A DNA stretch of 64,000 nt from Heterohyrax brucei (lineage: Eukaryota; Chordata; Mammalia; Hyracoidea; Procaviidae). The translations under genes were made by a program, and so were the position numbers. Location of the stretch: positions 1,116,001 to 1,180,000 of the forward strand of contig CM053141.1 in NCBI GenBank assembly GCA_028571685.1, written 5' to 3'. A model generated the notes under the pieces. It did no database searches, was not told where the DNA came from, and was given only the letters and a program-made list of their open reading frames with translations. Below are positions 10,921-41,280 of the stretch, one piece after another; the first letter of the stretch is position 1; each line of letters opens with the position of its first letter.

Positions 10921-11316
10921 TGCTGGAGGACCGTTTTCAGGCAGAGGTCAGACTATGGGGCTTGTGCAGACACAAATATGAGCACAGTAAGGTTTCATTT
11001 TCCTCCTGGGGGGACCAGGCTGATGTTAGAGGCCACTCCAGAAGAAGTCAGGAAGCAGAGGTCTGTGGTGGAAAGGCCCGAACCCCAGGAAGGCCCACCC
11101 GAGGAGAGGCGGTAGCCAGAGGTCGGAACTCAGAAAGCCACCCACACTGTGGTCCCTGCGGGTCCCTGCCTGTCATCAAGACGTCCATGCTGTTATGTGT
11201 GGGCTGAGGCTGGGGCTATAGGGTACCGGGGGGGCTGGTGAGCCCAGTGGTGGAGGTGGACCACGCCAGACCATGAGAGTCACCAGCTGGCAAGACACCT
11301 GACTGGGCTGTACCCA

Positions 11317-12204
11317 GGACTGTGCCAGCCCCTTGTCCTCTGCACGGCGTGCCCTGTCTGTCCATGGAGTCCACGCCCACCTGCCCTGCAGGACTGTGCC
11401 AGCCCCGTGTCCCATGCACGGCGTGCCCTGTCTGTCCATGGAGTCCACGCCCACCTGCCCTGCAGGACCGTGGCAGCTCTGTGTCCCCTGCACGGCGTGC
11501 CCTGTCTGTCCATGGAGTCCACGCCCACCTGCCCTGCAGGACTGTGGCAGCTCTGTGTCCCCTGCACGGCGTGCCCTGTCTGTCCATGGAGTCCACGCCC
11601 ACCTGCCCTGCAGGACCGTGGCAGCTCTGTGTCCCCTGCACAGCGTGCCCTGTCTGTCCATGGAGTCCACGCCCACCTGCCCTGCAGGACCGTGGCAGCT
11701 CTGTGTCCCCTGCACGGCGTGCCCTGTCTGTCCATGGAGTCCACGCCCACCTGCCCTGCAGGACTGTGGCAGCTCTGTGTCCCCTGCACGGCGTGCCCTG
11801 TCTGTCCATGGAGTCCACGCCCACCTGCCCTGCAGGACTGTGGCAGCTCTGTGTCCCCTGCACGGCGTGCCCTGTCTGTCCATGGAGTCCACGCCCACCT
11901 GCCCTGCAGGACTGTGGCAGCTCTGTGTCCCCTGCACGGCGTGCCCTGTCTGTCCATGGAGTCCACGCCCACCTGCCCTGCAGGACTGTGCCAGCCCCTT
12001 GTCCTCTGCATGGCGTGCCCTGTCTGTCCATGGAGTCCACGCCCACCTGCCCTGCAGGACTGTGGCAGCTCTGTGTCCCCTGCACGGCGTGCCCTGTCTG
12101 TCCATGGAGTCCACGCCCACCTGCCCTGCAGGACTGTGCCAGCCCCGTGTCCGCTGCACGGCATGCCCTGTCTGTCCATGGAGTCCACGCCCACCTGCCC
12201 TGAA
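11317..12204. repeat. 74 bp minisatellite, exactly 12 units
   Basis: Twelve head-to-tail units of 74 bp (888 bp total). Each runs from 'ggactgtg' or 'ggaccgtg' to 'cacctgccctgca'. The 3' two thirds ('gcgtgccctgtctgtccatg' onward) is almost invariant. The 5' third alternates between a 'ccagcccc' type and a 'ggcagctct' type. Because 74 is not a multiple of three and the unit has no stop in most frames, long open frames of 290-390 codons appear on both strands. They are artefacts. The array lies in CMBL intron 1. Confidence 0.97.
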
Positions 12205-12549
12205 GGACCAAGTAGAACCACCCTGCAGGGTTTCGGGGTGGTCACTGTCACAGGTGCGGACGGCTGCACCTCTGTCCCTTGGAGCTGCTGGTGAGTCTGA
12301 AGCCCTGAGTTCTGGGTTGGAAGTGGAGCGCTTCAACCTCTACACCACAGGGCTCCTGGGCTTAGGAAGGAAGGGGCTGGGTCTGGGGGCTGGGGGGCGC
12401 TGCAGGAGGCAGGACTCGGTGTAACACCCGGACGTGCCTCGGGTCGGACGAAAGGGGCTTTCTTCTGTACCCGGACCAAGCCCACTGCCTGGGAGTGAGT
12501 TCTGACCCGCAGGGGCCCTCCAGACGGCAGATCTGCCCCACGGGGTCTC

Positions 12550-25800: not shown

Positions 25801-28800
25801 AGAGAAATGGAAACACCTGAAAGACGGCTGGTTCTGTCTTGTTTGGTAGAAGCCTTTGATTGTAGTTCAGCACGGGGAGAAATACTCCCTGTGGTCACAT
25901 GTGCTCAGATGCACGTGGTGAGTGTCACAGGGACAAGGACCACTGTCCCGTGGTGGTCACGTGTGTGTGTGTGCTCGGACCCGTGTGGTGAGGGTCACAG
26001 GGACAAGGGACCAGTGTCCCATGGCTGCTTATGCTGTCTTTGACTTCAGACACGTGGCGTTTTGTCCCCGTCCCCATGAAAGCAAACATCTTTCAGGATA
26101 CCCTTGGTCTGGGCAGCCCCCCGAGAGTGCATTTCTGTCCCAGTCCACGTGTTGGAAAGTGAACGTGGAAGTTTGGCCAGTCTGCGGGATGAGGCCACGG
26201 TTCCCAGTCCCCTCTCGGCTGGAGCGGTCTCCATGCCCTTCCACACACAGCTCCGCTCTTGGGCGTGGGAAGGGCCGGCCAGCCGCAGCCTGGGGGAGTT
26301 ATGGGACGGGGCCGGCGACGGGGCCCGGTGCGGGGCTGCCCTTGGGGCCTCGTCAGTAGCCTCAGCCTGGGGCTGCAGAGCTGTTTCTGGGCTCTTTGCT
26401 GGCGCCTCATAGGCTCGGGTTCTTGTTCTGGGAAGCACCCTTGTGCAGGCCAGGCAGGTGGCTCTGGGAGACCTGCGGCTGTCCTTGGAGTGCAACCAGC
26501 TTTGAGAATTGCAGGTGTCACCTGCTCTGCAGCCGTCGTCCCCGCAGTGTCTGACTGCAGTGTTCTCTCCAGGTGTCTGCAGAGTGTTAGGGATGGCATT
26601 GTGTCGCCATCCCAACTGCCTTCTCTGTGGGGGCGTCCCTTGTTGGAAATAGGGTTTTTGTTCACAGTGTAGGCTGGGCCCCAAACCTGCTCACAGCTGA
26701 GTTATGAAAAGAACCTTCTACAGGGAGGCGAGCTCTGACGGGGGAAGACAGTGTCACAAGAGGCTCGTCGGCCTAACAAGGCCCATGAGGGCTGCTGACG
26801 AAGAGGGCATGGGGATGAGCCCCTGATGGGGACGCCAGCCTCCAGAACGGTGACAGACCATGTCCGTCCTTTGAGGCGCCTGCTCGTGGCATTTCTGCCA
26901 CGGCAGCGCCAGGGGCTGTGGACAGCTCTTGACTTGTCGTGACGTTTTTCTTGCCCAGAGAGGTGGATGCTGTTCTGAGGTACCTGAAGCTGCAGTGTGG
27001 CGCCCAGAAGTTCGGTGTCGTGGGATTCTGCTGGGGTGGCGTGGCTGTCCACCACCTGATGGCGACGCGCTCGGAGTTCAGGGCCGGGGTGTCCATCTAC
27101 GGTAAGTCAGCCTTGCGAGTCATTGAGGTGACGGCTCGGTGGTCACCACTGGCCTCTCTTCCTGGAGCTCAGGGTCCCAGGTGTGCAGAGACTCCCTGTC
27201 CTGGGAGGTTTGTGTGACATGTGGCAGTAGAGGCAGCCAACACAGGCCACCGGGTACATGGGGACTGGGGCATCCAACAGGGTGCCCTGGGGAAGTCATG
27301 GACCCAAGGTCTCCGTTTCTCCTCTTGGGGTGAAGCGGGTGATTTAACTAGCATTTCCTTCTTTGATGGTTAACATCAATCAGTATTCTTATGAGCAAGA
27401 TGTGTGAACGTATTTTTCTTAATTGTTCTCAACCACACGTGCGTGCACTCACAGACACCTGCACAAGAAAGAAGAAAAAAAGAGAAAAACCCATTCTGAA
27501 ATGTAAGTAGTAACAGACACAATTCACACAAAGCGAACAATAAATATGTATATATAAAGGAAAAAAATTAGTTAACATTTGTGTAAAGCAGAAAGATAAA
27601 TAGCCACATGTAACAAATACATCCTGCTGCCAGAAACCCAGGTGTTGTAGTGGTTAGTGCTACGGCTCTTGAGCGAGAGGTTGGCAGGGTGACTCTGCCC
27701 GGCGCTCCTTGGAAACTCCGTGGGGCAGTTCTTCTCTGTCCTATAGGGTTGCTGTGAGTTGGGATTGACTCGATGGCAGTGGGTTTGCTTTTGGTTTTTC
27801 GCTAAAAAGAAAAGCCCTGCGTATTTGCTCACACAGCAGAAAATAAACTTTGTCAGACCATTTAAAAACAGTAAGATAAAACCTCTTGTATTGAGTCAGT
27901 CCCTGTGCAGAGTGGCCCTGTAGGCCAGAGTGAGACGACCCGTGTAGGGTTCCCAGGAGCGGCTGGTAGCTTCAGATTGCTGACCTTCCGGTTAGCGGCT
28001 GAGTGCTGAACCACTGTGCCACCAGGGCCCCGCTCTCCTGGCGACAGAGAAAAGGTTGGAGGTGGGGAGGAGGGCCATCTTCAGGGCAGTGAAAGGGCGG
28101 CGTGTCCCTGTCACGGTGGACGGGGACGCCTGTGGTGAGGCATTCGTCAGAACCCGCAGGACTGGGTGGACAGTGAGCCCCCGTGTGGACGGAGGACTTG
28201 AGACAACCACTGTCGTCACAGTCTGGCTCTGCGGCTGTGACAAATGCCTGCGGATGCAGCCTGTTACTGGCAGCAGACACCATGTACCAGCAGAAGAGGC
28301 CCTGGAGACTCGGTGCTCTGTGTGCTGTTTCCCAGAAAGCTAAAAGAAGCAGAAAAATGAAATTCCAAGGAGAAGGAAATTAGCTTGACAAGGGGACAGT
28401 CACCCTGCCGCTCCTCTCCAAGGAGAAGGAAATTAGCTTGACAAGGGGACAGTCACCCCGCCGCTCCTCGCAGCGAGCACGGCCCCACATGGTAGCTTGC
28501 TGGTGCCCCCATCTGGCCACTGCGTGCAGGTGCACTAGCAGGTCTGGGGACAAAAGCCCAGCATGGGAGGGACAGTGCCCAGGGGCAGGGCACAGCCCCT
28601 GCTCAGAGCAGACGCAGGTAGGGACTTGAGCCCAGCACAGGAGGGACAGTGCCCAGGGGCAGGGCACAGCCCGCTCAGAGCAGATCCAGGAATGTCAGCC
28701 CAGGACAGGAGGGACAGTGTCTGGGGGCAGGGTGCAGCCTCGCTTACGACAGCAGATCTGGGAACGTCCGCTGAGCCCAGGACAGACAGTGCCTGGGGGC

Positions 28801-33747: not shown

Positions 33748-33753
33748 AGTGCT
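33748..33753. repeat. target site duplication, left copy
   Basis: AGTGCT immediately outside the left LTR. The identical hexamer lies at 41275-41280. A perfect 6 bp duplication shows one integration event, and 6 bp is the usual size for betaretroviruses. Confidence 0.92.
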
Positions 33754-34139
33754 TGCCCCGGCCCGCGGGACAAATCAACGAAAGGACGAGGGGAAGCCTG
33801 TGAAAGTAAGCAGGAAAGGCGGAAAAAAATGAAGGCAAGACAAAATTCTGATCAAGCCTCAGTTTTATTATTAAAATGAGGTATATTTATAGCAGTAGGA
33901 ATAAAGGGAGGGATCAAGTGACGTAGGGATGGAGTGACATTTGGAATGAGGTAGTTGTCGGCTGGGGATTGGATATACATAGGACTAAGGCAGTGACATC
34001 AGGCAGGAAGTTTTTCGCGCGCGCGGGCCTTTTGAATTTCGCGGGCGCGGGCTTTTTCAAACTTGGCGCGCGCGGGCTTTTTCAGCCCTACAAGCTTCCT
34101 GTATGTCAGGGCCTGGGGGCTCACCCATGGCTCCCAACA
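33754..34139 (-). repeat. provirus 3' LTR
   Basis: 386 bp, TG...CA ends. Read on the minus strand it has TATAAATA at 33882-33892 and AATAAA at 33864-33869. The U3 part carries three units of about 26 bp at 34011-34086 built on CGCGCG tracts and 'gggctttttca'. By eye it differs from the other LTR at three positions only: 34108, 34127 and 34137. At each the base here is the deaminated form of a CpG that the other LTR keeps. Confidence 0.95.
34011..34086 (-). repeat. triple CG-rich repeat in U3
   Basis: Three units of about 26 bp, each with a CGCGCG-type alternating tract then a pyrimidine run ('gggctttttca'). The same block is unchanged at 41146-41221 in the other LTR. Alternating CG tracts can adopt Z-DNA. 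Confidence 0.85.
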
Positions 34140-34154
34140 TCTCCTCCCTTTTTG
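34140..34154 (-). other. polypurine tract (plus-strand primer)
   Basis: On the minus strand, 'aaaaagggaggaga' abuts the 3' LTR. This is where reverse transcription primes plus-strand DNA. It is uninterrupted. Confidence 0.88.
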
Positions 34155-34428
34155 TTTTAATTGATGGGAGGTGGGCTTTAACTGGGCGAGGGGGTATTGA
34201 CCAAGGCTCCTCCGTGTAGAACTTATGGCTCTTGGTATCTTTTGAGGAGGAGAGGCAGAGCCGTTTTGATGTTGAGATAGATACCAACCTCTATGCAAGC
34301 CAGGTGTGCCCCAGGGAAACGCAGAGGAGTTAGTGTTAACTCTCCCTTGCAATGCTTTGCTTCGCACTCACACCAGTACCCATACCTCTCTTGCCGGATT
34401 GGTAAGGAGGTAAGCATGCCTCTACTTT

Positions 34429-35255
34429 TCATGCTGTCCCTGTGGGGAGGAAGCTAGGGTACCCCATTTCAGTGGCATAAGCTTCGTCAACTGCCAGGCG
34501 ATGGTAGTGAACTGGAATAGGTTTAGCTTGTGTAGCATCTAGTTGTTGTTTGATGAAGCTTGTTATTCTTCTGAATGCCCAAGGGCTGAAGGTCAGGAAC
34601 AGTAATATTCCTAAAACAGGGCCAGCAAAACTGAGAAATAGATTAGTAAGCCATGAAGTTCCGGTAAAGTTAAAATCAAGCGGTCCTGAGCTGCTTCCCC
34701 ATTCTCGTTGTCTTTGATTAGATTGCTCTGAGTTTAGTCATAGTGTCCTTAATGACCCCTGAATGATCTGTCTTTGTTACATAGTTTAGAGGAACTAAAT
34801 CTTTTGATTTTATCATAATACTTAGTAAAGGAGAAACTTAAGAGGTCTGAAGAAGGTGTGGACCATTTCCAATTTCCATCACTTGAGGTAACGCAACTCC
34901 ATTTGGCGCAGAAGTAGGAATCGGTTGTCCTACAGTGAGCGCCTTTATTATAGTTGGGGCAAACATAAAGCCCGAAGTTGCACACGTGTTTAGAGGCTTA
35001 TTCTTTTATGCGTGGGATGACATCTTTAAGGCAAAAGGAAAGGTCAGGCCACCAAGTGTTTAAGGGTTTGGTGTCACTAGCATTATAAAGTATGGAATTA
35101 TCATTTAGGTTTATAACAGCCCATTTAAGGCTAAAAGGAACATGGGGGTTGGTAGGGGCAAATCCTTCATATGTAAGAAAAATGATTAACAAGAAGGTTA
35201 AAAAGCTTATCTGTGATGGATTGTTGACTTCCATATCGCAGAGTTTTCTCAGCAT
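34429..35255 (-). pseudogene. env: env remnant, gammaretrovirus-like, internally deleted
   Basis: Envelope glycoprotein gene. The first ATG is at 35255, 40 bp after the pol stop, with a likely splice acceptor (ttttgtag) ending at 35295. The N-terminal part has a hydrophobic signal segment (about residues 22-40) and surface-subunit features such as 'PFSLKWAVINL' and 'YFCAKWSCVTS', which look gammaretroviral. An in-frame TAA at 34998-35000 interrupts it. The surface-unit frame ends at 34749. A different frame, open from 34737 to the stop at 34429, encodes the membrane anchor ('WLTNLFLSF', 'GPVLGILLFLTF') and cytoplasmic tail. The rest of the surface subunit, the cleavage site, fusion peptide and most of the transmembrane ectodomain are missing. 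The family's usual length is 550-650 residues; fewer than 300 remain. Not functional. Confidence 0.85.
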
Positions 35256-35294
35256 TTTACTCCAGCAATGCCGGACACAGGTGGCCTTCACAGC

Positions 35295-37886
35295 CTACAA
35301 AAGAGGAGAAGGCTTCTCAGGGGTATTTTCCCTGGAAATGGGGTTATCATTGATGGGCTTAACAAGACGTTCGGGTAGCCACCGAGGGGCCCCTTCTGCA
35401 GTATCATACACACATGCGTGGCCTCTTCCCCAGATAAGAACTGGATCAGGACCGTGCCATTTGTGGGTTATGGGATTTTTCCACATAACCTTGGCATATT
35501 GATTTTTAGTCTCTTGATGCCAAAGACAATCTGCCGCAGATTTTTCATTAATATCTAGTTGTAGGAAATTAAGGATGAACAATGCATGATTTAGGAGGTT
35601 ACGAGGGGAACCTTTAGTGGAATAAACAGTGTTTGTCTTAAGTTTGGATATGGTATACTTAAGGGTCTGGTGGGCTCGCTCTATTATGCCCTGTCCCTGA
35701 GGATTATAGGGAATGCTAGTTACATGTTTGATCTGGAATTGACTACAGAAATTTTTAAAGGTTTGTGATGTATAGCCTGGTCCATTGTCGGTTTTGATTT
35801 GTTGGGGCTTCCCCATGATGGCAATACATTGGAGAACATGTGCTATAACATTTTTAGAGGCCTCACCACTGTGGAGGGTGGCATGGAGGAACCCACTATA
35901 GGTATCAATGGTCACATGGGCATATTTGAGGTTACCAAACTCAGGAATATGGGTAACATCCATTTGCCAGATTTCATTGGAGAGCAGGCCCCTTGGGTTA
36001 ACTCCTAGGTGGGGGAGAGGCAGAAGAGTTACGCATGCAGGACAGTTTTTAACAATTTGTCTCGCCTGTTCTCTAGTAATCTTAAACATAAGGCGGAGTG
36101 TACGAGCATTGAGGTGGTGAAGAGCATGAGCCTGTTGGGCTTTGGTAATGGGCTCTAGGGTAGCTGAGAAAACCAAGTGTGTTTGTTTATCTGCAAGGTT
36201 GTTGCCTTCGGAGAGGGGTCCTGGAAGGTCAGTATGGGCATGCAAGTGTCCAATAAAAAAGGGGTATTGTCTTTTTAGGATGAGTGCCTGAAGTTGTTGA
36301 AAAAGAAGCACAGCGTTGGAAGATGTTTTGATGTAAGGAACAGTTTCCAACACTGGGACTGAGAGAGCTATGTAAGCACTGTCGGTGTAAAGATTGAAGG
36401 GAACATCATGTAGTATTGTGAAGACCTGTAAGATAGCGAAAAGCTCTACAAGCTGGGCAGACCGGTAAGGAGACTGGACACTGTTTTCCTGTGAGTCTAT
36501 AACCCACGCGGCAATACCAGAGGAAGATCCATCTGAAAAAACCAGGGAGGCTCCTTTCAAGGGCTGAGTAGATGTTATTTTGGGGAAGATGAAGGGGTGC
36601 CTCTGGGCAAACTGGAGGAGTTTGTGTGAAGGATAATGGTTATCTATAGTACCCTGGAATGTGACTAGGGTAATTGCCCAGTCATCATCATTCTGAGAGA
36701 GCCAGTCTGTTTGTTCCTTGGTGTAAGGAAGGATAAGCTGATCAGGGTCCCTGCCGAAATGCTGGCGGCTCTTTTCTCGGCCTAGTCTTATAAGTTTGGC
36801 CACCAGGGAGGGATAGGTGAGGAGAACTTTAGTCGGGGTGGAGGATAGGTGTATCCACAGGAGAGGGCCATTCTGCCACAAAACCCCCATGGGTGTATGT
36901 AGTGTGGCACAGACAATAAGGGCAAAGGGCTGTTCGTAAGTTATGAAGGTAAGCTGTATGGCCTCTTCAACAATGCGAAGGGCCCTTTTTGCCTCTGGAT
37001 TGAGGTAACGGGGAGAGAGGGGGCTGGCATCTCCATGAAGAGTATCAAACAATGGTTTTAATTCCCCAGTTGTAAGTTTGAGGTATGGTCGGAGCCAATT
37101 AATATCTCCCAGGAACTTTTGGAAATCATTAAGTGTGTGTAGATGAGAGGTTTTTAAGTGAAGCTTTTGAGTGGTGATTTGATTATTATTCAATTCGAAA
37201 CCGAGGTAATAATAAGGGTCAGCAAGTTGTATTTTGTTCGGGGCAATTTTAAGTCCAAGGGAAGTTAGTTGGCAAGTTAGGTCCTGACTGCACCTAAGTA
37301 CCTCTAAGCTGGAGGCCCCCGCCAGTAAAATATCATCCATGTAATGAATGATATAAATGGAAGACCACCGACGCCTAAGAGGGTCTACAGCCTGAGCAAC
37401 AAATTTTTGACACAGAGTGGGACTATTGGCCATGCCCTGAGGGAGAACTTTCCACTGATAGCGCTGCATTGGTCCTTTAAAATTAATAACTGGGAGGCTA
37501 AACGCAAAGCGTTCTCTATCAGGTGGGTGAAGAGGGATAGTGAAGAAGCAATCCTTGAGATCAATAATGATTTTAAAGTAATTAGCTGGAATGGCGACGG
37601 GGGAGGGGAGTCCAGGTTGGAGAGCCCCCATTGTAAACATGGTTTTATTAATTTCTCTGAGGTCCTGAAGGAGTCGCCATGACCCATTTTTCTTTTTTAT
37701 CACAAATATAGGAGTATTCCAAGGAGAGGTAGTTGGTTCTAAATGTCCAGCAGCCAGCTGTTCCTGCACTAACTCTGTGGCAGCTGCGAGTTTTTGCTCA
37801 GTCAAGGGCCATTGATCTACCCACACTGGAGACTCAGATCTCCACTTAATTTTATCAGCGTGGGGTGCAGGGGAGTCAATGGCCAC
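35295..37886 (-). CDS. pol: pol: reverse transcriptase, RNase H, integrase (intact frame)
   Basis: 863 codons open without a stop. The entry is by -1 ribosomal frameshifting from pro at 37892-37898, so the coordinate given (a GTG) is only the first codon after the pro stop in this frame, not an initiator. Reverse transcriptase: first catalytic Asp about residue 112 (DLKDCFF), LPQGM at 148-152 and YMDD at 182-185. RNase H: Asp452, Glu481, Asp502 and Asp566. Integrase: zinc site His590/His591 region with Cys615 and Cys618, then Asp643, Asp700 and Glu736, a D,D-35-E core, and a C-terminal domain with WKNP and WLPERLVKP. All expected catalytic residues are present, so enzymes made from this frame could be active. 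Sequence type is betaretroviral. Confidence 0.95.
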   Translation of the reverse strand: MAIDSPAPHADKIKWRSESPVWVDQWPLTEQKLAAATELVQEQLAAGHLEPTTSPWNTPIFVIKKKNGSWRLLQDLREINKTMFTMGALQPGLPSPVAIPANYFKIIIDLKDCFFTIPLHPPDRERFAFSLPVINFKGPMQRYQWKVLPQGMANSPTLCQKFVAQAVDPLRRRWSSIYIIHYMDDILLAGASSLEVLRCSQDLTCQLTSLGLKIAPNKIQLADPYYYLGFELNNNQITTQKLHLKTSHLHTLNDFQKFLGDINWLRPYLKLTTGELKPLFDTLHGDASPLSPRYLNPEAKRALRIVEEAIQLTFITYEQPFALIVCATLHTPMGVLWQNGPLLWIHLSSTPTKVLLTYPSLVAKLIRLGREKSRQHFGRDPDQLILPYTKEQTDWLSQNDDDWAITLVTFQGTIDNHYPSHKLLQFAQRHPFIFPKITSTQPLKGASLVFSDGSSSGIAAWVIDSQENSVQSPYRSAQLVELFAILQVFTILHDVPFNLYTDSAYIALSVPVLETVPYIKTSSNAVLLFQQLQALILKRQYPFFIGHLHAHTDLPGPLSEGNNLADKQTHLVFSATLEPITKAQQAHALHHLNARTLRLMFKITREQARQIVKNCPACVTLLPLPHLGVNPRGLLSNEIWQMDVTHIPEFGNLKYAHVTIDTYSGFLHATLHSGEASKNVIAHVLQCIAIMGKPQQIKTDNGPGYTSQTFKNFCSQFQIKHVTSIPYNPQGQGIIERAHQTLKYTISKLKTNTVYSTKGSPRNLLNHALFILNFLQLDINEKSAADCLWHQETKNQYAKVMWKNPITHKWHGPDPVLIWGRGHACVYDTAEGAPRWLPERLVKPINDNPISRENTPEKPSPLL

Positions 37887-38817
37887 TACGAAAAATTTTC
37901 GCTTCCCAAGCCTGAACGATTATTTTTAGGCGTTATAAGAAGAGGCTGCTTCATGCCTTGATTATTCTTTCCCAATCCCTGTCCCGGTAGGAAGCCCAGA
38001 TTAAGCATCTGTTGGGTAACTATTTCATTTGGGCTACACATGATGACCCCCAGCTGGGATAAGACATCACGACCCCACAGATTAACAGGCAAATCCGGAA
38101 CAATGTAAGGTTGAACTTGTCCTGAGTTACCCTCAGAGTCCTCCAAGTAAGAATTTTTGAGCTTTGCTTAGGATTGACAGACTGACCAATGCCTTCAAGA
38201 TGAGTTATTGAGGTCTCACAGGGCCAGTTGGAAGGCCAATATTTAGCTGAAATTACTGTAGCATCAGCTCCTGTGTCCATTATTCCTTCAAAGGCTTTGC
38301 CATCTAACTGGAGAGTAAGTTTTGGTCTATCGGGTGTGACTGGTTGCATCCAATATGCATCTGAGGACCCGAAGGCGACGTCAGGCCGCCGGGGAACTAA
38401 ATGCCTATGGGGTGTGGGTAATAAAGGGAGCAACAAGATTTGAGCTATTCTTTGACCTACATGTATGGATACCGGCCCTGAGGGGGCAGAAGCTAAAAGA
38501 GATATCTGTCCTGTATAATCATTGTCAATGACTCCTGGGAGGATCTGAAGACCGGCCAGAGAGGAACTGCCACGCCCTATTATCAATCCAAACGTTTCTG
38601 GGGGTAATGGTCCTCGGACCTCTGTAGGAATGACCTGAATGCCCTGTTCAGGGGTTAGTATTGCACTGATGGCAGATCGTACGTCCAACCCTGCACTTCC
38701 AGGGGTGGCGTGACAGAGGGAGCTGAAACCTGTCTCTGTGTCTGCTTTTGGGGAACAAACCTGACTGCCCCTAGGTTCTGTTCCAAGGGTGGGGCCAGGG
38801 GCTGGCCCCGCTGGGAG
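37886..38817 (-). pseudogene. pro: pro: dUTPase, protease and G-patch, one frame break
   Basis: Entered by -1 frameshifting near 38817-38823; the frame is open from there. The N-terminal part is a dUTPase (SAGLDVRSA, then GVIDNDYTGQI and GQRIAQILLLPL). The aspartic protease active site DTGA lies near 38266-38277. A frame change at about 38146-38166, next to an A5 run, separates this from the protease C-terminus (NLWGRDVLSQLGV) and the G-patch (LGFLPGQGLGKNNQG), which lie in the frame ending at 37886. The homopolymer makes an assembly error as likely as a true indel. With the break real, protease would be truncated. The G-patch is a betaretroviral hallmark. Confidence 0.88.
37892..37898 (-). 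promoter_or_regulatory. pro-pol ribosomal frameshift site
   Basis: Minus-strand heptamer A AAT TTT, in the pro frame, two codons before the pro stop TAG (37886-37888). A -1 slip there enters the pol frame exactly. The same heptamer is, to my knowledge, used at the pro-pol junction of type D retroviruses. Confidence 0.85.
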
Positions 38818-40666
38818 TTTCCCTGTTTCGGGGGGAGAGGCTGACCGTTGATGTCAGTTTTGGAATAACAATCTACAGCCCAATGCTTGCCTCTTTTGCA
38901 TCGGGGGCACACTGAGGTGGGAGGCCCACGATTTTGTTTTCCCAGGGAACATTCGCGCACAAAATGGCCAGGCTGCTTGCAATTAAAACATGTTTTTTGT
39001 AATGAGCTGGGGTTCAAGCCCTTAAGCGCTGCTCCTATGGCAACGCCGATAGCATGAGAGGCTCCAATACCCGAACAAAGTCGGACATAATCGGAGAGAT
39101 CTCCTCTGCGATGAGGTCGTAGGGCTTCTTGGCAAGAGGGGTTAGCATTTTCAAAGGCAAGGTGTTTGATAAAGGCACTGCCAGTCTCACCTTCTCCCAC
39201 TAGCCTTTCGGCAGCATCGGTTAATCTGCTGACGAACTCACTATACGGCTCATCGGGTCCCTGGCGGATGTTAGCCAATGAGGTGGTGGCTGTGCCCTTG
39301 GGGGGGAGACGTTTCCAGGCTCTAAGGCCGGCGTTTTGTATTTGTGATAATAAACCAGGGGGAAAATTTGCCTGTTTCTCATTGGTGTCATATGGAGCCC
39401 GCCCCAAGAGTTTATCTCTCGTCCAGGTGCGGGAGGTCCGGCTTTCTCTGTTACGCTGGGCCGTCTCCCGGCACAGTTCAGCAAATTCGGTACGCCAGAG
39501 AACAAAGTCTCCCCCTGATAAACAGGCCCGAGCCAAGAAATGCCAATCATTAGGTGTAAGCCATCGGTCACTAAGGCTCTCAAGCAATGCTATACTGTAA
39601 GGGGCTGTCGGGCCGTAGTTATTGACAGCCGCTTTTAAGTCTTTAACATGTTTCACATTTAAGCGGCGATATTTCTGGGGGCTAAGGCTGTCAGGTTGGA
39701 CAGCATCTATATCAGGATTCTCAGTTTCTTCCTCTTCTATCTCAGGGCTTTCCTGCTCTTCCTCACTCTCTATTTCAGTCTCTATCTGCCCGTGCTGGCT
39801 ACGAGTTACCGGAAAGGTGAGGAGAGTCCTAGGACGGCCTGGGGCACCTTTTGACACATTGTTCCCGGATCGAGTTTTAGGATCCTGGGCTAGGCGGAGT
39901 GAGTTAAGCTCTTGCTCAAGGGCTTGGAGCTCCTTTTGGAGATCTGTCTGTGTCTGCGAGCTACAAGTTTTTCTAGCGTTGATATATCCTGATCGAGGGA
40001 GTTTTCAGTCGATCGGGGAGGACAGCTGGGTTCCAGGCCAAGGGGTGGGGCAGTCAGGTTAGGAGGGCCTGGAGGATGAGGAGGTCTCTGAAAGGCAGGG
40101 GTCGTAAGGGTATAGGGGTAGGCATTCTCATGGTAATGAGCAGCATTTTCTTCAAGAGTGGTCTGACCCTCAGGGGACAATGCGTTAGAATCGGGTTTAT
40201 CAACGAAAGCTCTCAGGGACGGGTAAAGGACCTCGGGGGGATCAGTATGACTCCCTTGCGGGAGTGTGTGTGTTCCAAAGGCTTGAGGTTCTTCTGGAAT
40301 ATCAGGAGAAACTGAGGGGGGACGGGACCGTTCTTTCATAACCTTTTCACCCATCTGGGCGAGATGTTGAACATCAGGAGCATTATGAGAGCTCTGGAGG
40401 ACATCATTTATCAAATTCCAATAAGAAAAACAAGTGACTGGGACCTTCTCGGGTCCGAAAGTTTTATAATAGTCATTCAGACAATCTCCAACCCGTTTCC
40501 AGATTTGCGGGCTGATGGTGCCTTCCTGTGAGAACCACGGACAAATGTCTGATAGGAACATAAAAAACTGAGCTAAGTCTTTCTTTTTCGCCTTAATTTT
40601 CCGCCTATCCAATGATTTTTCAATGCCGGTAAGAAACAAGTCATGCGAACTTAATTCCTGTCCCAT
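38655..40666 (-). pseudogene. gag: gag: matrix, capsid, nucleocapsid, one frame break
   Basis: Structural polyprotein. The start is taken at ATG 40666 because it gives MGQELS, an N-myristoylation signal, with a betaretroviral-type matrix (SQEGTISPQIWKRVGD). The first frame stops at 39890. The second, read from 39857 and open upstream to about 39970, carries capsid (YGPTAPYSIALLESL), the major homology region (IRQGPDEPYSEFVSRL) and two CCHC zinc knuckles (CFNCKQPGHFVREC and CPRCKRGKHWAVDC). The frames differ, so a single indel lies near 39950-39990. A YPSL late-domain-like motif and proline-rich segments lie before it. Capsid and nucleocapsid look complete. An assembly error remains possible. 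Confidence 0.9.
38817..38823 (-). promoter_or_regulatory. gag-pro ribosomal frameshift site
   Basis: Minus-strand heptamer G GGA AAC in the gag frame (codons CAG GGA AAC). After a -1 slip the pro frame is open into the dUTPase. The gag stop lies about 160 bp further on. This is a classical retroviral slippery sequence. Confidence 0.87.
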
Positions 40667-40865
40667 GTCTACCAACCACCACTTACCTCTCAGACCAACT
40701 CGCAGGGCGGCTACTCCCGTGGTGATCAGGACAAGTTTGACTCACGGGCAGCTTTTCCCGTGGAAACTTCAGTCGAGCAAGCTCACACCCGGTGCGGTTG
40801 CTCAGGACGCCTGGCCAGGACTTCCTTCTCCGTGGTGGGTTTCTTTCAGCAGCTCCGTACCTCGG

Positions 40866-40884
40866 GCCCCACGTTGAGGCGCCA
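40866..40884 (-). other. primer binding site, tRNA-Lys type
   Basis: On the minus strand TGGCGCC, then T, then CAACGTGGGGC, four bases after the 5' LTR. It matches the tRNA-Lys1,2 site except for a one-base difference in length in the middle. It is the class typical of type D and other betaretroviruses. Confidence 0.8.
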
Positions 40885-40888
40885 GTTT

Positions 40889-41274
40889 TGCCCCGGCCCG
40901 CGGGACAAATCAACGAAAGGACGAGGGGAAGCCTGTGAAAGTAAGCAGGAAAGGCGGAAAAAAATGAAGGCAAGACAAAATTCTGATCAAGCCTCAGTTT
41001 TATTATTAAAATGAGGTATATTTATAGCAGTAGGAATAAAGGGAGGGATCAAGTGACGTAGGGATGGAGTGACATTTGGAATGAGGTAGTTGTCGGCTGG
41101 GGATTGGATATACATAGGACTAAGGCAGTGACATCAGGCAGGAAGTTTTTCGCGCGCGCGGGCCTTTTGAATTTCGCGGGCGCGGGCTTTTTCAAACTTG
41201 GCGCGCGCGGGCTTTTTCAGCCCTACAAGCTTCCTGTATGTCGGGGCCTGGGGGCTCACCCACGGCTCCCGACA
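40889..41274 (-). repeat. provirus 5' LTR
   Basis: 386 bp with TG...CA ends. TATAAATA at 41017-41027 and AATAAA at 40999-41004 on the minus strand. It keeps the three CpGs lost in the other LTR. It would drive transcription towards CMBL, antisense to that gene. Confidence 0.95.
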
Positions 41275-41280
41275 AGTGCT
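41275..41280. repeat. target site duplication, right copy
   Basis: AGTGCT, identical to 33748-33753. It shows that the two LTRs belong to one insertion and have not recombined with another copy. Confidence 0.92.

Follow-up and report, generated by a model that had tools for sequence, protein, structure and literature searches.

What kind of retrovirus left the element at positions 33754-41274 of a 64,000-nucleotide stretch of contig CM053141.1 (positions 1,116,001 to 1,180,000; called the window below), and how recently did it enter the germline? The analysis confirmed that the element is an endogenous provirus resembling Mason-Pfizer monkey virus (MPMV). It lies on the minus strand, an orientation that the preliminary description of this locus did not give. 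The element is very probably a germline provirus of a type-D betaretrovirus related to MPMV and simian retrovirus (SRV), of the group with a gamma-type env, which was inserted by ordinary integration at some time in about the past few million years (My). This reading is carried by what was observed directly: the anatomy, the placement of pol, the low divergence of the long terminal repeats (LTRs), the scant decay in conserved parts of pol, and the broken state of gag, pro and env.

Structure of the provirus

It had been described that both LTRs are 386 bp long with three differences, and alignment reproduced this (3 mismatches in 386, no gaps). Each LTR has TG at its start and CA at its end. 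BLAST of the pair gave 384 identities in 387 aligned columns (E 0.0), one column of the 387 lying outside the LTRs. The perfect AGTGCT duplication at both flanks was likewise reproduced; a 6/6 match has a chance probability of 0.00024 at equal base frequencies. U3 carries a threefold 25-bp array rich in CpG (34013-34084 and 41148-41219) with E2F-like TTTCGCGC, and the array is identical in both LTRs. Between the LTRs, the primer site, the polypurine tract and both frameshift heptamers were all found, as the preliminary description had claimed, the primer site with one extra base (Table 1). The likeness of the leader to RF00459 runs from the primer site onwards. A second AAATTTT, at 39369, is unrelated to the pro-pol heptamer. 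At curated thresholds, an Rfam scan of the whole window gave no match. Matches to mir-4743 in env (24.4 bits; gathering cut-off 72) and to HgcC in the Rfam scan were taken as chance.

Pol is the only open gene. Its openness, earlier put at 863 codons, was borne out; that exact number was not reproduced, as the frame holds 867 codons when counted from the pro-pol heptamer and slightly more from stop to stop. All catalytic residues are kept, as had been claimed: YMDD, LPQG, two RNase H motifs, and the H/H, C/C, D, D and E of integrase, the remaining RNase H residues being judged by eye. The connection region has a three-residue gap compared with four aligned relatives; a fifth relative lacked a recognizable cutting motif and gave an empty row. 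Pfam recognized dUTPase, RVP, RVT_1, thumb, RNase H and integrase domains in pol and pro, and Gag_p10, Gag_p24 and zinc knuckles in gag. Beyond Pfam, five pieces were compared with NCBIfam, where the sole additional matches were to dUTPase/dCTP-deaminase models, under their cut-offs.

The other genes are broken. gag has one frameshift, between the matrix frame and the capsid frame, and pro has one, inside protease. In env, the start piece terminates at an in-frame stop; the surface subunit (SU) piece continues in the same frame, and the piece from the tail of the transmembrane subunit (TM) sits in another frame than the SU piece. The PF00429 match ends at profile position 162 and restarts at 501, a deletion of about 340 profile positions. 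Judging from these positions, the cleavage site, the fusion peptide and the CX6CC region should be gone. The env remnant looks gamma-type from its sequence. A beta-type env of the HERV-K/HML type was not found, as the two matching env pieces fit PF00429 alone (E up to 1). The TM-tail piece is 68% identical over 34 amino acids (aa) to the bat protein P0165. Past env, a 122-codon open frame without ATG (33999-34367, minus strand) runs into the 3' LTR. The 296-nt stretch between env and the 3' LTR was tested as a constitutive transport element (CTE). It folds at a z of -2.0, and 6 of 200 shuffles folded equally well. In Rfam, this stretch had only a chance-level microRNA match at E up to 1; Rfam may hold no CTE family.

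Thus, the claim that the provirus is nearly complete holds for its length and its signals and fails for its intactness. An intact, replication-competent provirus has open gag, pro, pol and env, and here only pol is open. The preliminary description was silent on the gag and pro frameshifts, the stop and large internal deletion in env, and the three-residue gap in pol.

Table 1. Features of the provirus, in the 5' to 3' order of its own strand (positions in the window)
Feature	Position	Strand	Remarks
Target-site duplication, 5' LTR flank	41275..41280	.	AGTGCT (window plus strand)
5' LTR	40889..41274	-	386 bp; carries TATAAA and AATAAA
Primer binding site, Lys1,2-like with one extra base	40866..40884	-	judged by its match to the start of RF00459
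Leader like RF00459 (MPMV packaging signal)	40537..40884	-	27.3 bits, E 0.0012; gathering cut-off 54
Splice-donor-like AG/GTAAGT, ahead of gag ATG	near 40686	-	by eye
gag matrix	39890..40741	-	ATG at 40666; one frameshift from capsid frame
gag capsid and nucleocapsid	38655..40004	-	
gag-pro frameshift site GGGAAAC with RF01097-like stem-loop	38779..38823	-	26.5 bits, E 0.071; gathering cut-off 43
dUTPase and N-terminal part of protease	38020..38853	-	DTGA active site; cut by frameshift; dUTPase PF00692 82 bits
C-terminal part of protease and G-patch	37886..38167	-	other frame than protease start; G-patch 40.3 bits; RVP profile 67-98, 29.9 bits
pro-pol frameshift heptamer AAATTTT	37892..37898	-	
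pol (RT, thumb, RNase H, integrase)	35295..37919	-	open; 874 codons stop to stop
env start	34998..35294	-	hydrophobic, signal-peptide-like stretch (by eye); no Pfam match
env remnant, gamma-type SU piece	34749..34997	-	PF00429 profile 89-162, 18.5 bits; cut-off 22.5
env remnant, membrane-spanning and tail part of gamma-type TM	34429..34737	-	PF00429 profile 501-560, 35.4 bits; cut-off 22.5
Polypurine tract adjoining 3' LTR	34140..34153	-	by eye
3' LTR	33754..34139	-	386 bp; TpG or CpA where 5' LTR has CpG (3 sites)
Target-site duplication, 3' LTR flank	33748..33753	.	AGTGCT (window plus strand)

Placement among betaretroviruses

The earlier label of betaretrovirus-like was upheld and could be narrowed to the MPMV/SRV-like type-D group. 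By sequence comparison, the provirus is best placed with these viruses ("group VIII"), a group already described, to which it adds a new member. Type-D traits found are a reverse transcriptase (RT) of the SRV clade, dUTPase in pro, and an LTR length of 386 bp (type-D range, 300-500 nt). The G-patch in pro agrees with this placement, as does the likeness of the leader and the gag-pro site to RNA elements of MPMV type, at scores under the curated cut-offs. For RT, residues 20-320 were used as the query, and the best 120 of 554 matching proteins were considered. Nearest among these were contigs, at 84% identity; among the named matches, identity was 73% with a rabbit endogenous retrovirus (ERV) Pol, 70% with SRV-4, 69% with SRV-1 and 67% with PSRV1. 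A quick tree without bootstrap was built from 103 rows, the query and 102 of the 120 matches; P0054 was excluded for its shortness, together with 17 of the last 18 rows, three of which bear a bird's name, and the tree holds no HERV-K Pol. The query falls in a set of 3 rows (SH-aLRT 95) within a set of 10 rows (SH-aLRT 100), the nine others of which are contigs, and a set of 37 rows (SH-aLRT 99) contains the query with SRV-1, SRV-4, SRV-5 and PSRV1.

For Gag, 125 of 7985 scored candidates matched. The nearest named capsids among the 120 matches listed are from gundi (84% identity), Cnephaeus (82%), Myotis (82%) and Pipistrellus (79%). The capsid tree has 49 rows, 48 of them selected from the 120 matches according to length and to either name or rank. 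It groups the query with gundi, bats, pangolin and further rows, 19 in all, among which the query branches first. In the Myotis daubentonii protein P0165, a gag piece that shares 79% of 179 aa with the present one is combined with an env of gamma type containing CX6CC. The gene model of P0165 is labelled syncytin-B-like, with a retroviral capsid at its start and a gamma-type env at its end; it is probably an ERV under a wrong name. Matches in PDB agree with a betaretroviral placement, and several of them are presumably MPMV, mouse mammary tumour virus (MMTV) or HERV-K entries. Scans of viral contigs with the env TM piece and the RT piece gave 15 and 9 pattern matches and no confirmed relative, records near the window's genome being possibly excluded.

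Age of the insertion

That the insertion is recent was upheld by two measures, LTR divergence and the little decay in pol. The 3 differences in 386 positions correspond to a distance of 0.0078. At 2.2e-9 substitutions per site per year this means an age of 1.8 My, with a Poisson range of 0.36-5.2 My on 3 events; a rate of 4.5e-9 would lower the age to 0.9 My, and one of 1e-9 would raise it to 3.9 My. These rates are assumed. In the part of PMC7997422 that was available, 2.8e-9 and 4.5e-9 were applied to PSRV1. Bat ERV clocks are slower in the available part of PMC3621094, where a divergence of 0.008 was dated to 4.2 My in Myotis and one of 0.006 to 7.5 My in Pteropus; these clocks would give the present provirus a greater age.

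All three LTR differences are CpG in the 5' LTR and TpG or CpA in the 3' LTR. They are confined to the first 32 nt (a span of 29 nt), and the other 21 CpGs are unaltered, 13 of them within the 25-bp array. APOBEC editing of one LTR was rejected because C-to-T as well as G-to-A changes occur, every one in CpG. CpG content is uninformative on age because the provirus body and the flanks do not differ (observed/expected ratio 0.45, against a flank mean of 0.44).

The preliminary description had named LTRs made alike by gene conversion as an outcome that would refute a recent age. Conversion can produce patchiness of the kind seen here, where the three differences crowd into 29 nt at one end of the LTR and 21 other CpGs are unaltered; the broken state of gag, pro and env would also suit an old insertion. 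Pol lies outside the reach of LTR conversion and therefore provides a measure free of the LTRs. The top 18 RT-search matches include 15 full-length relatives, and we counted departures of the query at those pol columns on which all 15 agree. The query deviates at 0 of 115 RT columns and 1 of 86 integrase columns (1 of 201 in total), and the count is almost unmoved with 14 relatives, when P0012 is left out (0 of 115 and 1 of 87). Computed from the codons, one unit of neutral divergence should produce 454.8 departures. This means 1.8 at the LTR-derived divergence; at 2.2e-9, insertions 5, 10 and 20 My old should show 5, about 10 and 20. Pol thus bounds the age (one-sided, 95%) at 4.7 My for 2.2e-9 and at 10.4 My for the slow rate of 1e-9. 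The perfect target-site duplication also fits youth. An old insertion with homogenized LTRs is thus very improbable, because pol shows 1 departure in 201 invariant columns, and the LTR-free count disfavours conversion as the reason for the similarity of the LTRs.

Origin of the breaks

With assumed fractions of indel and nonsense changes, gag and pro together should have gained 1.5-2.2 breaks since insertion, pol 1.4-2.0 and the env remnant 0.5-0.7, and the chance that pol stays open is 0.15-0.27. Decay in place is compatible with the two frameshifts, the single env stop and a pol that is still open. When the env deletion took place is less easily judged. In a variant that overlaps with the recent insertion preferred here, the copy was already defective in gag, pro and env when it was inserted, and was mobilized by proteins of sibling copies. 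Three genes are broken with pol open, and env lacks about 340 profile positions, which speaks for this variant; degraded env is described in spreading intracisternal A particle (IAP) copies in the available part of PMC3758190. An earlier origin of the two frameshifts and the stop is unneeded because the breaks expected since insertion cover them. We consider this variant possible, though somewhat doubtful; if true, the locus marks a spreading germline element and not direct infection. The sequence comes from a single locus, and a frameshift or the env deletion could be an error of assembly or sequencing; this is unlikely, as three separate genes are affected and the gap in env is large. Because the locus makes no intact Gag, protease or Env, it is most likely inert, or at most a transcribed relic.

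Genomic surroundings

The window holds a 173-bp short interspersed element (SINE) at 27641-27813 and 12 further diverged copies; ten plain shuffles gave none. This dispersed family is AfroSINE-like and probably AfroSINE. A strict pattern of a SINE tail gave 0 matches in the window; the 12 further copies came from a seed within the window. If the family is AfroSINE, the 13 copies are consistent with an afrotherian-type genome, and an afrotherian host is probable. A minisatellite at 11315-12208 has 12 copies of a 74-bp unit with a 96% match. As for host genes, ten long flanking open reading frames (ORFs), from 151 ORFs of at least 110 aa in the window, had no Pfam match at E 0.01.

Proposed history

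The preferred history is an ordinary retroviral integration, with a 6-bp duplication, that would have taken place within roughly the last few My. Pol would have been functional, in a replicating virus or in mobile descendants, until shortly before the insertion. Both frameshifts and the stop, and perhaps the env deletion as well, may date from the integration event or from later times, or may have come in with a copy helped in trans.

Several observations weigh against this history or parts of it. The matches to RF00459 and RF01097 are both under the curated cut-offs, and the SU piece scores under the Pfam cut-off. The CX6CC core is deleted, so the env type is read from two end pieces and a relative. 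The set of gundi, bats and pangolin in the capsid tree is supported at only 90, under the 95 mark. The date hinges on the assumed rate. The low pol counts are not special, as 4 of the 14 relatives score 0 in RT and 6 in integrase (ranges, 0-10 in RT and 0-9 in integrase). Clustering of the LTR differences is not predicted by plain decay (P 0.0005 among CpGs; P 0.014 for the span with random sites); regional methylation or a conversion patch may be guessed as its cause.

Capsid identity of up to 84% with gundi and bats suggests cross-order transmission. If the host is afrotherian, this identity is far too high for co-divergence of host lines whose split dates back about 90-100 million years. 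The lineage would then have reached the host line from other mammals and not through co-divergence. More tentatively, a group VIII lineage of gundis, vespertilionid bats and pangolins might have entered an afrotherian host in the last few My, with sibling copies perhaps polymorphic or expressed; this would be a recent retroviral invasion across superorders. The provirus would extend the recent spread of MPMV-like betaretroviruses with a gamma-type env to a host that looks afrotherian. Among the papers listed in literature searches on betaretroviruses with Afrotheria, elephant and afrotherian names, none described such an element by title or abstract opening, in a coverage that mostly lacks subscription journals. 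No afrotherian name was among the names shown for the listed RT and Gag matches.

Comparison with known systems

Group VIII, as defined in PMC3621094, contains MPMV/SRV and the bat elements PvERV-betaJ, PvERV-betaK and PaERV-betaA, and the following comparison is with the available part of that paper. The present provirus shares with this group a type-D gag-pol and dUTPase in pro. In PvERV-betaJ and PvERV-betaK the primer is Lys1,2 and the LTRs measure about 425 nt; here the primer site is Lys1,2-like and the LTRs are 386 bp long. Env of the group clusters with gammaretroviruses, whereas only a gamma-type-looking remnant is left here. The bat elements also have an open frame after env that runs into the LTR, whose counterpart here lacks ATG. 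Unlike the bat elements, to which it is likened by description only, the present provirus has lost most of env and is frameshifted in gag and pro.

ERV-Beta-Mpen of the Chinese pangolin, as portrayed in the available part of PMC12584738, joins a betaretroviral gag-pol to a gamma-type env and has an LTR of 387 nt, against 386 here. Its insertions are young (0-14.29 My), and it is placed near vampire-bat DrERV and squirrel monkey retrovirus (SMRV). It has CX6CC and the immunosuppressive domain (ISD), which are deleted here. A Manis Gag (P0130), which may or may not belong to ERV-Beta-Mpen, has a capsid 72% identical to the present one. PSRV1 of the sifaka is also a betaretrovirus of gamma-type env near SRV, with a Lys1,2 primer and an LTR date of a few My. 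It differs in RT (67% identical), and its sole defect reported in the available part of PMC7997422 is an env stop. The nine-banded armadillo carries an unfixed chimeric betaretrovirus (Malicorne 2016, as cited in the available part of PMC10536682), which is likewise chimeric and in a host outside Boreoeutheria; in the capsid tree, which includes three of the four listed armadillo Gags, these are grouped apart from the present provirus. The ERV Gags of gundi and vespertilionid bats (P0121, P0122, P0128, P0159 and P0165) are 81-84% identical in capsid over 139-201 aa. Their hosts belong to other mammal orders, and P0165 among them has a gamma-type env with CX6CC.

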